Shown piece by piece: positions 56,189-64,000 of a DNA stretch of 64,000 nt (positions are counted from its first letter, which is position 1; every line of letters starts with the position of its first letter). Source of the DNA: Desulforegula conservatrix Mb1Pa (GTDB lineage Bacteria > Desulfobacterota > Desulfobacteria > Desulfobacterales > Desulforegulaceae); NCBI RefSeq assembly GCF_000426225.1, contig NZ_AUEY01000008.1:1-64000 (forward strand). Reading direction: 5' to 3'. The position numbers and the translations under genes are program-made. The notes under the pieces are model-generated. The model did no database searches and was not told where the DNA came from. It was given only the letters and a program-made list of their open reading frames with translations.

Positions 56189-58819
56189 ATGCTCTATGAA
56201 CAAAAAAAGGAAACGACCGGTAAAATGATGTTTAAAAGGAAAGGGCGTTCCATATCCCTGCTTCTTACCACAAGCATTATTTTTACGGTGGCATTCGTTT
56301 CGGTTATTTCTATATCAATCGGATACATCGAGGCTTCTAGAAAGGCCAAGGCTGATCTGGAGAGAAACCTTGAAAGAAACATCTCGTCCATTTCTGAGAT
56401 ACTGCAGGTGCCTTTATGGAGTTATGATCAGGAAACTATTGAAAATACAGGTAATCTTTACGCTGCAAGCGAAGATGTCGTCTTCCTGACCATCACTGAT
56501 TCTCTGGGACAGGAAATGTTTCAGATGGAAAAGAAAAGGGACATCTCCGTTTTGGATAGCCGTTACATCATGTTCGGAAGCCAGGTTGCCGGAACTGTAA
56601 AAATGGGGCTTTCATCCAACAAATACAAAGAGGCCATACGCCAGCTTCTCTGGTCAGGAATAATTACCATGGTGATTAACCTGTCCGTTCTTATAGCCAT
56701 CACCGGGTTTCTGCTTAGAATGTTCCTGAAGAATCCCCTTGATATCCTGAGCAACATCGTTGGCTCCTATGCTTCCGGCAAATATGAAAGCAGAGACGAG
56801 CATCTCCCCTATATCGAATTTCAGCCAGTGGTGGACGTGTTAAGAGTCATGGGGAGCAAGATTCTTCTTCAGATAGGCGAGTTGCGTGAGGCTGAACAGA
56901 AATACAGGAGCATTTTTGAAAACGCTGTAGAAGGAATTTTTCAGATATCTCCTGAAGGCCGTTTTCTGAGCGTCAATCCATCCATGGCCAGAACCCTGGG
57001 GTATGAATCGCCGGAGGGCCTGCTCCAAAGTGATTCAAAGATTGAGCGGCATTTTGTCTCGCCGGACGAATTTAAGAAGATAGACAATATACTCAATGAG
57101 TCAGGTGTTATTTCCAGATATGACGTACAGGGACTGAAAACAAATGGTGAGATTCTCTGGTTTTCTTTAAGCGCCCGAGCGGTGAGGGATAGTGATGGCA
57201 GGGTTCTTTATTACGAGGGGTCCATTTTTGATATTTCTGACCGAATGGAGAGGGAAGAAGCTGAAAGAAAGCAGAAAGCTGCGGATGCGGCAAACCAGGC
57301 TAAAACCCTTTTCATAGCCAGAATGAGCCATGAACTCAGAACACCTCTGAACTCAGTCCTTGGCATGACGGAAATGTTATCTGAAACCAACCCCACCGAA
57401 GACCAGCTGGAATACATAAAGCTTCTACAGAGCTCCGGAGTTTTTCTGGAATCCATTATAAACGATATCCTTGATTTTTCAAAAATTGAGGCCCAACAGC
57501 TTATTCTTGACGACTCTCCTTTTGATCTTCAACAGTTGATTGAAGAAGTTGCCGGCCTTATCAAAGTCAGGGCCATGGAAAAAAATCTGCCTGTGACTTA
57601 TTCCATAGATCCTGGTATTCACCGTTTTCTTGCAGGAGATCCTGTCCGTTTGAAGCAGATCCTCATCAACCTCGGAGGGAATGCGGTCAAATTCACCAAT
57701 GAGGGCAGAGTGACCATAGAGGTGGCCAAAAGCCCTGATCCAGTCAATCCCGAAACCTATGAAAGCATTGTGTTCAGGGTCAGGGATACAGGCATTGGAA
57801 TTCCTGAATCCAAGCAGGGCATTATTTTCGACAGTTTTTCCCAGGCCGACAACTTTATCAAGAGGCAGTACGGAGGAACAGGCCTTGGCCTTGCCATCTG
57901 CAAAAGGCTTGTGGAACTCATGGACGGAACTCTGTCGGTCAGCAGTGTTGAAGGCGAAGGTTCGACCTTTTTATTCAGCCTCAGTCTTAAAAAAGTGGAT
58001 GATGGATCGATTATTGAAAAGGCGATTCCCAATGCGACTATTGAAAGTCTGCCTCCAATGACCGTACTTCTGGCAGACGATATTGTGCCTAATAGAAAAG
58101 TTGTACACAAATATCTTCAGAAATCACCGATCACCATAGTGGCTGTCGGAAATGGTCTTGAAGCCCTTGAAGCTTACAAGAAAGGCAGTTTTGATCTTGT
58201 ACTTATGGATGTTGAAATGCCTGTTATGAACGGTCTTGAATCCACTCGCCGGATAAGGGAATGGGAACGGACTAACAACCTTTCTCCCTGCCCGCTCATC
58301 ATCATTTCAGCCCATGCCTTCGGAGAGCAGAGAAATCAGTGTTACGAGGCAGGGTGTGACAGGCTGCTGATCAAGCCTGTTCGTAAAAATGACCTGATCC
58401 AGGCTATATTCCAGGTTACTCAAAAGGGAACACTGTCTCAGCCAGAAGAGACAGGTCTGCTGCCTGATGACTCTATGAAGTATGTTCAGGACGAATTAAA
58501 GGGCAGGGAAATTTTGATGGGAAAAGTGTATATAGATGTGATGTTTGAAGATCTCATCAAAGATTTCTTTGAATATTTCATAGAGTCACTTGCCTCAATG
58601 GAGACAGCTGTAGCTGAAAAAGATTTTGACACCATGTATCGACTCGGGCATGGTTTGAAAGGTTCTGCCAGAAATTACGAGTTTTTTGATCTCGGAAATG
58701 TCTTTTTGGAGATAGAGAAGGCAGCGGCTGAACGAAACTCGGAAAATGCCCTTCATCATATTAAAAGGGCCAGAAAATACCTTGAAACTGTCGATGTGGT
58801 ATTTATTGAGAAGGAATGA
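56189..58819 (+). CDS. Hybrid sensor histidine kinase with HPt domain
   Basis: An 876-residue membrane kinase. Helix 1 about 22-46, a periplasmic domain to about 152, helix 2 about 153-178, HAMP-like linker, PAS about 238-355, phosphoacceptor His381 in RMSHELRTPLNS, ATPase domain with N498, DTGIG 533-537 and GTGLG 563-567, a receiver with Asp674 in VLMDVEMPVM, and an HPt domain with His821. The start could instead be Met13 or Met14. It is 4 bp ahead of the REC-kinase gene, so the two form an operon and a likely phosphorelay. Confidence 0.92.
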   Translation: MLYEQKKETTGKMMFKRKGRSISLLLTTSIIFTVAFVSVISISIGYIEASRKAKADLERNLERNISSISEILQVPLWSYDQETIENTGNLYAASEDVVFLTITDSLGQEMFQMEKKRDISVLDSRYIMFGSQVAGTVKMGLSSNKYKEAIRQLLWSGIITMVINLSVLIAITGFLLRMFLKNPLDILSNIVGSYASGKYESRDEHLPYIEFQPVVDVLRVMGSKILLQIGELREAEQKYRSIFENAVEGIFQISPEGRFLSVNPSMARTLGYESPEGLLQSDSKIERHFVSPDEFKKIDNILNESGVISRYDVQGLKTNGEILWFSLSARAVRDSDGRVLYYEGSIFDISDRMEREEAERKQKAADAANQAKTLFIARMSHELRTPLNSVLGMTEMLSETNPTEDQLEYIKLLQSSGVFLESIINDILDFSKIEAQQLILDDSPFDLQQLIEEVAGLIKVRAMEKNLPVTYSIDPGIHRFLAGDPVRLKQILINLGGNAVKFTNEGRVTIEVAKSPDPVNPETYESIVFRVRDTGIGIPESKQGIIFDSFSQADNFIKRQYGGTGLGLAICKRLVELMDGTLSVSSVEGEGSTFLFSLSLKKVDDGSIIEKAIPNATIESLPPMTVLLADDIVPNRKVVHKYLQKSPITIVAVGNGLEALEAYKKGSFDLVLMDVEMPVMNGLESTRRIREWERTNNLSPCPLIIISAHAFGEQRNQCYEAGCDRLLIKPVRKNDLIQAIFQVTQKGTLSQPEETGLLPDDSMKYVQDELKGREILMGKVYIDVMFEDLIKDFFEYFIESLASMETAVAEKDFDTMYRLGHGLKGSARNYEFFDLGNVFLEIEKAAAERNSENALHHIKRARKYLETVDVVFIEKE

Positions 58820-58823
58820 CGCC

Positions 58824-60329
58824 ATGATGCAACCCACCAATATTCAAACAGACTACGCCACAGAGAAAAAAAAGCGCGTGCTGGTTGTCGATGACATCAG
58901 AACTGACCTGCATTACGTGGGCAAACTGGTTATAGGGTTTGACCATGAAGTCATCCTGGCGGAATCGGGGCTTTCAGCTCTGGAGGTTGCGGATGGCAGT
59001 ATTGATCTCATAATAGTCGATGCGGTCATGCCTGACATGGACGGGTTCGAGTTTGTCCGATCAGTGCGGGCAAATCAGCAGCTTTCCCATATACCCGTAA
59101 TCATGGTCACATCTTTATCCGGAAAAAAGGACAGGATCAAAGCCGTTGAAGTGGGCATCAACGATTTTATCAGCAAGCCTGTGGACAGAATTGAGCTAAA
59201 GGTCCGTATGGATTCAATGCTCAGGATGAAAGAGGCCCAGGACAGGGTCAGGGAATATCAGAAAGAACTTGAGCATCTCGTTGAACAGAAAACTTTTGCG
59301 CTGAACAGGACTCTGCAGAAACTCCAGGCTGTCCTGGACGGAATGAACGATTGTATGGTCACAGTGGACCGCGATTTGAAAATTACTGAGATGAATCAGG
59401 CTTTTCTCAGAATCATCGGCAAAAGCAAGGGCGCTTTGCAAGGCCTCCCGTTAAAAGATCTTCTTGTTGGTGACATCCAGACTGACGGATTTGCATCCCT
59501 TTTTGAACATGCTGGCACCTCTGCCGAGCTTGACATTGAATTCCCTCAGTGGGGGCGGAAAACTTTTTCCGTGCTGACAACCCCCATGGAAGACCAGGGC
59601 CATCTTATAATGATGAGGGACATAACAGAAAAGAAGCAGGCTGATGAAAAACGGGCCAGATTTCTCTGTATTCTGTCGCATGAGCTTATAACCCCTCTTA
59701 ACGGCATCAAGGGCCTTTCCGATTTAATGCTCATGGATTCTGCGGCACTTTCTGAAGATTCCAGAAGATATATTGGCATGATCAATATATGTGGAAACAA
59801 ACTGGAAAAAATAGTGAAGGAGCTACTGCGTTTCGTTGAATTTTACAGTGATATGAGCTCTCCTGAAGATAACAATGTCCGACTTGATTTACTTGCTGAA
59901 AACGTTATCAAGTCGTTTTCAGAAAAAAAAGACAGGAAACATATCAGTATTTTATTTTCCGTAGAAGACCCTCCGTCTGTGGTTTACGGCAAAAGCGATC
60001 ATTTCGTTGAAATACTCTTTCAGATCGTAGACAATGCGCTGAAGTTCAGCAAGGAGCACGGCACTGTGGAAATTGTTTTGAAGAATTCTCCAGGTGAGGT
60101 TCAGTTCATCTGCAGAGACCAAGGAGAAGGAATCGAGGAAAAAGATCTCGAGCATGTTTTTGATTCGTTTTATCAGGCAGAGAATTACATTACCAGAGTC
60201 CAGGATGGTCTTGGTCTTGGCCTTACCATAGCAAAAAAAGTCGTCGAGCTTTACAAGGGAAATATTTATATAAACAGCAACCCCGGAAAAGGCACAGAGG
60301 TGATCGTTGCTATCCCGAAACCTGGGTAA
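58824..60329 (+). CDS. REC-PAS-histidine kinase
   Basis: A 501-residue soluble protein. A receiver domain (phosphoacceptor Asp66 in LIIVDAVMPD, Lys118) is followed by a coiled coil, a PAS domain about 165-270, and a kinase core with His286 in LSHELITPLNG and G boxes DQGEGIEEK and GLGLGLT. AAGGA is 8 bases before ATG 58824, within the end of the previous gene. The receiver is the probable phosphate acceptor from the hybrid kinase HPt domain. Confidence 0.9.
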   Translation: MMQPTNIQTDYATEKKKRVLVVDDIRTDLHYVGKLVIGFDHEVILAESGLSALEVADGSIDLIIVDAVMPDMDGFEFVRSVRANQQLSHIPVIMVTSLSGKKDRIKAVEVGINDFISKPVDRIELKVRMDSMLRMKEAQDRVREYQKELEHLVEQKTFALNRTLQKLQAVLDGMNDCMVTVDRDLKITEMNQAFLRIIGKSKGALQGLPLKDLLVGDIQTDGFASLFEHAGTSAELDIEFPQWGRKTFSVLTTPMEDQGHLIMMRDITEKKQADEKRARFLCILSHELITPLNGIKGLSDLMLMDSAALSEDSRRYIGMINICGNKLEKIVKELLRFVEFYSDMSSPEDNNVRLDLLAENVIKSFSEKKDRKHISILFSVEDPPSVVYGKSDHFVEILFQIVDNALKFSKEHGTVEIVLKNSPGEVQFICRDQGEGIEEKDLEHVFDSFYQAENYITRVQDGLGLGLTIAKKVVELYKGNIYINSNPGKGTEVIVAIPKPG

Positions 60330-60780: not shown

Positions 60781-62268
60781 CTAAACCTTTTCAGCAGGTG
60801 ATGGCCCGTAAAAACACACAGGAGGAGGTTTTATTTCCCTGTATTTAAGTATTTCAAAATATGCCATGATTTTGTTTACATATTCCACGGCCCTATTTCC
60901 TCTTAAATTGAACCCCGAATTTTTTCTGGCAGCCCTTCCTTTTTTGCATGTTTTCATAACCTCTGCCACATCTTTCCATTTAAGGTTGTTCAGCCCCTTG
61001 GACGAAGCTGCGCTCTTTGCGGCTATGATATGATTTGGCCCGATGTTGTAAGCGGCCAGGGCAAAACTTAGCCTGTCATTTTCAGTTTCGCCCGGCAGAA
61101 TGTCAAACAGGTCTTTGAGATAGCCAACCCCGGCCTTGATGTTTGATGACGGATTCATTAGATTTGTCGCTCCGAGATCAGCCGCTGTTGACGGTAATAG
61201 CTGCATCAGGCCGGCTGCTCCTGCACCACCCTCAGCCCTGTGGTTAAACGACGACTCCTGGTAAATCAGGGCTGCTATCAGCCTCCAGTCAAAACCCTTA
61301 TCCTTTGCTTCGCTCTTGATTATGCTTTTATAGGCCGGAAGAAAGGCTTTTGTCTTATCAAGGAAGGCTATGCTGTCTATTGCGTCAAGACCGGCAATCT
61401 CAGACAGATATTTTTCGTTAAGTTCCTCGAAATCCCCGTTCTTTTCACATTCGGTTAAAAAAGAGTTGACGCTGTGGAGTAGTCTTCTTGATTTGGGATT
61501 AACTGCCCATGAAATACCCAGAGCCGGGCCGGTACTGTCTCCAACGACTGTTTCAGGAAAATTTCTCTGAACATTTTTGGCAATGTGCTCGTTGGTCACA
61601 GTCTGGATAATCTGTTTGCTTGCTACCTGACGGATCTGTCTTGAAGTATCTCCGAAGGATTTTTCAGCATAAAAGTGCAGGCCGTTGGAATGCCAGTCAG
61701 AATCGTCTCCTGGGTATAGAGTCCGGACAGCGACATCTGGCATGGTTGAACCCTGTCCGTTATCACGGTGAGTTACTACAGTCGGACGCGTGTTCATATA
61801 TGGCCTTGAATAGCTCAAGGCATCATATCTTTCCTGGAAAACAGGCGCTGATGGGGCAGCAATGTCGACCTCCCCTTTTTTCAGGGCATTCTCCATGCTG
61901 GACCATTGAGCATAGGTCACAATTTTCAGTTTTACACCAAGGGAATCCGCAAATGACTTTGAAAGTTCATATTCGTATCCCATTGGTTTTCCCTCATACA
62001 TGAAGAGGGCCGGGGCATTATCGGGCAGACCCATTACTATCTCACCCGACTGCTTAATTTCGTCTAAATCCCGGTGTTCAGGTCTGAATTCCTGAGTCCT
62101 GGCCGCAGAAGCATAAAGTACCGTACACAGCACGGCAATTTTTACGGCTTCGACGGCTTTTGTCGATCTAGGCTTAAAAAATGTCAAAACGAACTCCTGG
62201 TTGAAGTTAATACCATCTCGTGTCCTCGCATTTCCGTAAGCCTTACGGTTTTTTAATGCTGTAGCCAC
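60781..62268 (-). CDS. MltF-like lytic transglycosylase with solute-binding domain
   Basis: A 495-residue exported protein with a GTG start behind CCGGA. A hydrophobic signal region lies near residues 40-58, unusually far in. Residues about 70-310 are a SBP_bac_3-type domain (MGLPDNAPALFMYEGKPMGY), and about 325-450 an SLT lysozyme-like domain with the catalytic Glu in IYQESSFNHRAEGG followed by AAGLMQLLPSTA. This is the layout of MltF, which cleaves peptidoglycan and responds to muropeptides. No operon partner. Confidence 0.88.
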   Translation of the reverse strand: MATALKNRKAYGNARTRDGINFNQEFVLTFFKPRSTKAVEAVKIAVLCTVLYASAARTQEFRPEHRDLDEIKQSGEIVMGLPDNAPALFMYEGKPMGYEYELSKSFADSLGVKLKIVTYAQWSSMENALKKGEVDIAAPSAPVFQERYDALSYSRPYMNTRPTVVTHRDNGQGSTMPDVAVRTLYPGDDSDWHSNGLHFYAEKSFGDTSRQIRQVASKQIIQTVTNEHIAKNVQRNFPETVVGDSTGPALGISWAVNPKSRRLLHSVNSFLTECEKNGDFEELNEKYLSEIAGLDAIDSIAFLDKTKAFLPAYKSIIKSEAKDKGFDWRLIAALIYQESSFNHRAEGGAGAAGLMQLLPSTAADLGATNLMNPSSNIKAGVGYLKDLFDILPGETENDRLSFALAAYNIGPNHIIAAKSAASSKGLNNLKWKDVAEVMKTCKKGRAARKNSGFNLRGNRAVEYVNKIMAYFEILKYREIKPPPVCFYGPSPAEKV

Positions 62269-62491: not shown

Positions 62492-62911
62492 TCACGGGCA
62501 AATAATCTGATCTAAAATCAGCCCGAAAAAAAAGTGGTCTTTGGACTCGAAAAGCCATCCATTATGGTTAAGACACAGTTTGCAAACCGATACCATCCAT
62601 GTATGTCCCTTAAACCATGAAAATTCGTCCGAAGGCCTGCTTGCCGCACTGCATCCGGGTGCCTTGCTGAAACAGGCAATTTCGAAAACCATGCCGTATG
62701 GATTTACAAAAGCATGGGTATGATTTCCGTTTACAGATATTTTAAAATTTATCGAGGTTAATGGAGATCCGCAATTTCTGCAAAGTATGAAATTTTCGTC
62801 TTCATGCTTTGCATATGCCTCATCAAAGGATGAAACTGTTTCAGACGGCAGATCATCAGGGTCGCTTTTGAGGCAGAATATATTGGCTTTATGGTTTAGT
62901 TCTGCCTTCAT
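62492..62911 (-). CDS. Cereblon-like CULT-domain protein
   Basis: A 139-residue protein. Two cysteine pairs, CRNC (44, 47) and CKLC (110, 113), form the zinc site, and Trp99 (SWFKGH), Trp105 (HTWMV) and Trp119 (NGWLF) have the same spacing (6 and 14) as the three cage tryptophans of human cereblon. NPYGMVFEIACF and FFGLILDQI also fit the CULT domain, the thalidomide/cyclimide-binding fold. It starts inside the end of a hybrid kinase gene (23-bp overlap), so both are coupled. The natural ligand in bacteria is unknown. Confidence 0.85.
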   Translation of the reverse strand: MKAELNHKANIFCLKSDPDDLPSETVSSFDEAYAKHEDENFILCRNCGSPLTSINFKISVNGNHTHAFVNPYGMVFEIACFSKAPGCSAASRPSDEFSWFKGHTWMVSVCKLCLNHNGWLFESKDHFFFGLILDQIICP

Positions 62912-64000
62912 CCTTTGCCTTGAGAATTCTTCTAATGCTTGATGACAGGATGTCTATGGTCAGCGGTTTCATGAGGAAGTCTTTAATGCCAATGATTCTG
63001 GCTTTTTCAGGAGATATCAGTTCGCTGAACCCGGTTGTGAGTATGATAGGTATGTCTTCTCTGATGGTCAAGATTTTTTTTGATAGGTTTTCCCCTGTAA
63101 GTTTGGGCATAGTCATGTCTGTAAGCACAAGGTCAAATTCATATGGTTCCTGTTCGAATATTCTTAAAGCCTCTTCAGGAAACTCGGTGCTTACGACATC
63201 ATAGCCGAGCTTTTTCAATATTTCATCATTGGCCTGTAGAATCATGGGTTCGTCATCTACAAGAAGGATTCTTTCCTTTCCTGTTTCAGGCACAATGTCT
63301 TTATGATCCTTTTTGATTTCTGTAGCTTCATTTTGAATAAGAGGAAGGAATACCAAAAAAGATGTTCCCTTTCCAAAGTTGCTTTCAACCTGAATAAAAC
63401 CGTCGAGACTCGTAACAATACCATGAACAACAGACAGCCCGAGTCCTGTTCCCTGGCTTTTCTCCTTGGTTGTGAAATAAGGATCGAAAATTTTATCTAT
63501 GATATCATTATTTATTCCATAGCCTGAGTCAGAAATTTCTATTCTTATCCATTTGTTGTTTTTGGGTCTTTTGATGTCATATGGGCATGATACAAGAATT
63601 TGTTCCTGTACAGATATTTTAAGAATCCCGCCTGTCTCCATCATGGCATGGTGGGCATTTGTGCAGAGATTCATTACTATCTGGTGAATATGGGTCGGAT
63701 CAGCCATCACTGTCAGATTTTTGTTTGAAAGCTCCTGTTTGATTTCAATGGTTTTTGGCAGTGATGCTTCAAGAAGTTTTATGGTTTCTTTGATAATATT
63801 GGTGATTCTTAGAGGCCCAAGCTCCTGTTCGCTTTGCCTGCTAAAGGCAAGTATCTGCATTATCAGATCCCTGGCTCTCTGGCTTGCCTTCAGAATATTT
63901 ATTGTCTTGGCCTGAAGCGGGTCTTCTTCCGGGATAAGCATCCTCAGCAGTTCTGTATTTCCGATTATGGCACTTAGTATGTTGTTGAAGTCATGGGCTA
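62889..64000 (-). CDS. Hybrid histidine kinase, 5' end beyond the window
   Basis: Partial gene. Reading from the right edge: H box AHDFNNILSAIIGNTELL (outside any Met-start frame), ATPase domain with N box NLCTNAHHAM, SDSGYGIN and GTGLGLS, then a receiver with Asp in LVLTDMTMPKL and a Lys in FLMKPL. The sensor part lies outside the window. Its stop is 23 bp inside the CULT gene, so its last codons overlap it. Confidence 0.9.
   Translation of the reverse strand, partial: AHDFNNILSAIIGNTELLRMLIPEEDPLQAKTINILKASQRARDLIMQILAFSRQSEQELGPLRITNIIKETIKLLEASLPKTIEIKQELSNKNLTVMADPTHIHQIVMNLCTNAHHAMMETGGILKISVQEQILVSCPYDIKRPKNNKWIRIEISDSGYGINNDIIDKIFDPYFTTKEKSQGTGLGLSVVHGIVTSLDGFIQVESNFGKGTSFLVFLPLIQNEATEIKKDHKDIVPETGKERILLVDDEPMILQANDEILKKLGYDVVSTEFPEEALRIFEQEPYEFDLVLTDMTMPKLTGENLSKKILTIREDIPIILTTGFSELISPEKARIIGIKDFLMKPLTIDILSSSIRRILKAKDEGRTKP

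Follow-up and report, generated by a model that had tools for sequence, protein, structure and literature searches.

At the edge of the 64,000-nucleotide stretch analysed here (the window), from Desulforegula conservatrix, a relative of the sulfate reducers, a short gene starts inside the last codons of a gene for a hybrid histidine kinase. The first-pass annotation took its product for a cereblon-like CULT domain protein and, given the overlap, proposed that protein and kinase form a two-component or ligand-sensing pair. Is the small protein what it appears to be, and does the kinase tell us what it does? The features concerned are the following.

62492..62911, minus strand: CULT (cereblon thalidomide-binding-domain-like) protein gene, 139 aa, ATG start at 62911, one copy in the genome
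62492..62791, minus strand: CULT domain proper, about residues 41-139, from the alignment with MsCI4 and superposition of the model (model residues 40-139)
62843..62881, minus strand: residues 11-23 (IFCLKSDPDDLPS), the region of the N-terminal motif; the variable tail after it is modelled with low confidence
62615-62617, 62597-62599 and 62555-62557, minus strand: codons of W99, W105 and W119, counted from the ATG at 62911
Within the CULT domain: zinc cysteines C44, C47, C110 and C113, in two CxxC pairs
62889..64000, minus strand: 3' part of the hybrid histidine kinase gene, with HisKA-HATPase-REC inside the window; stop at 62889
62889..62911, minus strand: overlap of the kinase 3' end and the CULT 5' end, 23 bp, with the CULT start within the last kinase codons

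The signature residues that had suggested the CULT assignment are all in place. The three cage tryptophans, W99, W105 and W119, have the spacing of the family: they equal W79, W85 and W99 of MsCI4 with a constant offset of 20. Both zinc pairs, C44/C47 and C110/C113, are found, and in an alignment of 61 CULT loci the four cysteines and the three tryptophans are invariant. The FxGL segment is also present, as F128-F129-G130-L131 of the 139-residue protein. MsCI4, which is cereblon isoform 4 from Magnetospirillum gryphiswaldense (MGR_0879; PDB 4V2Y, 4V32 and others), is likewise a free-standing CULT domain, and it is the closest match when the protein is compared with PDB sequences by phmmer (E = 1.5e-24 to 5e-22), followed by cereblon chains (E = 2.4e-15 to 6e-13; human cereblon about 1e-13). 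Neither Pfam nor NCBIfam profiles give a significant match, so that annotation by those profile libraries would overlook the protein.

The predicted structure points in the same direction. An AlphaFold2 model built from 68 sequences has a mean pLDDT of 89-98 for each ten-residue block from residue 41 onward. In a Foldseek search with this model, chains of the bacterial cereblon MsCI4 rank first and human cereblon next. VIA-align superposes the model on thalidomide-bound MsCI4 with Z of about 19 and an rmsd of 1.0-1.1 Å over 100 residues (for 6r0q_B, Z 19.2 and 1.0 Å over 100 residues), which indicates the beta-tent fold. Model residues 40-139 lie on MsCI4 residues 20-121, and the cage region is offset by 20 in the sequence alignment as well; W99, W105 and W119 are therefore predicted to fall on the MsCI4 cage tryptophans, for which the residue numbers W79, W85 and W99 have been published (PMC8900816). 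Identity with MsCI4 is 39-40%. N70, P71, E96 and F97 correspond to N50, P51, E76 and F77 of MsCI4, while F121 stands where MsCI4 has Tyr101, a position at the base of the cage that is Phe in human cereblon too. The thalidomide-binding domain of human cereblon shares fold and cage (Z about 17.6, 1.4-1.5 Å, 34% identity), and cereblon bound to the cyclic-imide peptide GLUL-cN (entry 9nr3) superposes with Z 17.6 and 1.5 Å. Human cereblon also has a LON domain and a DDB1-binding region, both of which are absent from the stand-alone protein of the window, whose 139 residues match only the CULT domain and contain no Pfam domain. Sequence comparison and predicted fold agree that the reading frame at 62492-62911 encodes a true CULT-domain protein of the bacterial group, its tri-Trp cage intact; among CULT proteins it is an ordinary one.

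A paper of 2015 had already described CULT proteins of bacteria, most of them delta-proteobacterial (PMC4287342). When 84,980 species genomes were scanned, 348 relatives of the protein were confirmed. Among the best-matching named records, most belong to Desulfobacterales or related MAGs; scattered others carry the labels Nitrospirae, Thermodesulfovibrio, Acidobacteria, Aminicenantes, Myxococcota and Rhodospirillaceae. Within the order, 247 of 389 genomes have a CULT gene, nearly always in single copy, as do 63 of 96 sampled relatives, mostly with one copy. CULT proteins are thus widespread within one order and mostly single-copy. Carriage by mobile elements was considered as well and rejected, since plasmid, phage and viral contig collections contain no match; the CULT gene of the window is chromosomal and single-copy.

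The kinase requires a closer look. Its gene is cut by the window edge and continues to contig position 65369 (ATG start, 826 aa) or 65471 (first TTG, 860 aa). The protein is soluble, with the domain order REC-PAS-PAS-HisKA-HATPase-REC, and is an ordinary member of the hybrid kinases of this architecture, which have no conserved link with CULT. The overlap itself is real: with the kinase stop at 62889 and the CULT ATG at 62911, it measures 23 bp, as first described, and the CULT gene is probably on the kinase transcript in this genome. One could imagine that the CULT protein modulates the kinase upon binding of a cyclic imide or a uracil-like compound, the overlap enforcing balanced translation of the two. 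The same-strand overlap favours such a functional pair, and so does the presence in the kinase of two PAS domains with an unassigned input signal.

What happens at other CULT loci makes this proposal very improbable. CULT loci were gathered with their flanks and reduced to a non-redundant set of 136 that differ in their CULT domains. In only 2 of 81 CULT loci is the next gene upstream, on the CULT strand, a kinase gene, and one of these is the window's own. The other, in a genome of another family, encodes a 583-aa kinase that begins with a sensor region and shows no evident receiver domain in its sequence, a non-hybrid protein of unrelated architecture. Kinases are not enriched beside CULT: they account for 7 of 263 adjacent genes (2.7%) and 23 of 966 non-adjacent ones (2.4%). 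Seen from the kinase side, the nine next-best homologues have no CULT gene in their flanks (about 1.5 kb on each side, and 13 kb for the best). In one genome (G190), a kinase homologue and a CULT gene share a contig at a distance of about 6 kb, and hence are not adjacent. In other genomes, CULT adjoins unrelated genes. The gene order proves to be essentially unique to the window genome, an outcome that the first-pass annotation had itself named as speaking against the pairing. The background rate and the differing architectures rule out pairing as a trait of the family, and the survey excludes a family-wide link between kinase and CULT. The upstream kinase is, as far as gene order can tell, most likely an incidental neighbour, and a tempting link is removed as unsupported.

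The reach of this survey is set by how quickly CULT neighbourhoods change. An upstream gene family is common to 57% of CULT pairs at 80-90% identity (4 of 7) and to 2.8% at 55-60% identity, and the nearest CULT proteins to that of the window are 56% identical. Because of this fast decay, the survey speaks to a family-wide link and not to a pairing confined to one lineage. A functional pairing private to the lineage of the window is conceivable, since even its nearest relatives are too distant for CULT neighbourhoods to be conserved and the relatives searched (96 sampled, 389 of the order) include no second genome of its family.

The other neighbours of CULT genes form an eclectic collection: CysZ/EI24, a TP_methylase-HemD fusion, a CLC channel, NAD synthase, an MCP, an FHA-VWA protein and glucuronate isomerase. 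Two upstream families recur, CysZ/EI24 at 11 loci and the TP_methylase-HemD fusion at 11 loci, several of these in organisms of the Desulfobulbaceae type. As candidates for a conserved non-kinase neighbour, both were rejected, because they look like clade-level associations without recurrence across the family. A literature search found nothing on the genes that surround CULT in bacteria. In view of this wholesale turnover of neighbours, the CULT protein most likely acts in trans; gene context gives no partner, and the function is to be sought elsewhere in the genome.

A different kind of clue comes from the N-terminus. The protein of the window has about 20 residues more ahead of the domain than MsCI4. 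These include a short motif that MsCI4, with its short N-terminus, presumably lacks. Residues 1-40 are variable, and yet most CULT relatives carry the motif, which as a rule lies 25-35 residues ahead of the first zinc cysteine. Its consensus, from the N-terminal tails of 122 relatives, is hydrophobic-[LFC]-[RK]-x-P-[PSA]-[ED]-[KRN], and the linker behind it is often acidic; in the window it is FCLKSDPDD. A Gibbs search of the tails scores 796, compared with 526-535 for shuffled tails, and the core hydrophobic-[LFC]-[RK]-x-P-x-[DE] occurs in 87 of the 122 tails versus 21 +/- 4 in shuffles, about 30% of tails lying outside this strict pattern. Such shuffles do not separate selection from shared ancestry, to which the conservation is partly due; the linker in between has diverged, though. 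The per-column figures, for sequences picked by motif position, serve as illustration rather than as a test.

Docking of the motif on its own domain was considered and set aside. Two AlphaFold2 models show a low-confidence tail in which the motif is only slightly better, and no intramolecular site: in the protein of the window, mean pLDDT is 64-66 for residues 1-20 and 48 for residues 21-30, and in one relative (L173) residues 11-14 rise above 50 within a low-confidence tail. A slightly better island in such a tail is compatible with docking to another molecule, and from its conservation and the models the motif looks like a docking peptide for another partner. It is apparently new to the literature as far as searched, since the 2015 family paper has the bacterial members consisting entirely of the CULT domain (PMC4287342). 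The motif could be used as bait in a search for the partner.

Taken together, these elements suggest a chromosomal, single-copy CULT protein with an imide-binding cage, a tail that would dock to a partner encoded elsewhere, and a kinase that is an incidental neighbour, a reading to which we give a probability of about 0.6. By its structural match, the tri-Trp cage on the zinc-stapled beta-tent would bind cyclic imides. The most plausible ligands would be the cyclised C-terminal Asn or Gln ends (aspartimide or glutarimide) of damaged proteins, with a small imide or uracil-like compound as an alternative, and the N-terminal peptide may dock the loaded protein onto its partner. Human cereblon recognises C-terminal cyclic imides, and PIMT (PCMT1) can generate them (PMC12117711, PMC13001092). 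The PIMT (PCMT) family, the type of enzyme behind such ends in human cells, has a match in 96 of 96 genomes, which makes a source of the ligand plausible; with PIMT in every genome, its co-occurrence with CULT does not discriminate and was discarded as evidence.

It is possible, if rather unlikely, that the protein acts alone as a small-molecule sensor or buffer for uracil, uridine or hydantoin-type imides, in which case its ligands would not be proteins and the tail would be an element for solubility or dimerisation. The titles of PDB entries have MsCI4 crystallised with deoxyuridine and with valerolactam, and the paper that PMC4287342 cites as ref. 18 has uridine binding in its title. The recurrent tail motif, however, suggests a partner, and in the scanned neighbourhoods families of nucleotide metabolism do not recur next to CULT.

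The reading that we favour, an imide-end binder tethered by its motif, has a more specific form in which CULT hands proteins with cyclic-imide ends to an AAA+ protease through the N-terminal peptide. SspB and ClpS serve ClpX and ClpA as adaptors, and the CULT tail likewise consists of a variable linker and a short motif. CULT is moreover missing from 10 of 12 genomes without ClpS, compared with 23 of the 84 that have it (crude p = 0.0003). This association mostly dissolves when genome size and completeness are taken into account (p = 0.043, 96 genomes); it was also chosen after the fact and is uncorrected for phylogeny. Furthermore, the CULT neighbours that were scanned include no recurrent protease family. 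The co-absence of ClpS and CULT is a lead only, and we regard delivery to a protease as an unlikely, tentative proposal. Less probable still, as a statement on the proteins in general, is that they are modular adaptors in which the cage captures C-terminally cyclised (aspartimide or glutarimide) proteins, which the hydrophobic-[LFC]-[RK]-x-P-x-[DE] peptide keeps attached to a repair enzyme or a protease. If true, prokaryotes would have a ubiquitin-free counterpart of the degron recognition by cereblon, in a family of which one bacterial member already serves as a crystallographic stand-in for cereblon.

Some further genes surround the locus. On the same strand, 223 bp downstream of CULT, 60781-62268 encodes a protein resembling MltF, in which an SBP_bac_3 solute-binding protein is joined to an SLT domain of the lytic transglycosylase type. 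On the opposite strand (plus), 56189-58819 and 58746-60329 are overlapping kinase genes, with the architectures PAS-HisKA-HATPase-REC-Hpt and REC-PAS-HisKA-HATPase, respectively. Divergent from the CULT-adjacent kinase, at about 65806-68847 of the contig (L009:9807-12848, plus strand), lies a gene for a 1014-aa protein in which radical SAM, methyltransferase and DUF5714 domains are fused; we take it to be of a kind associated with arsenic or arsenosugar biochemistry.
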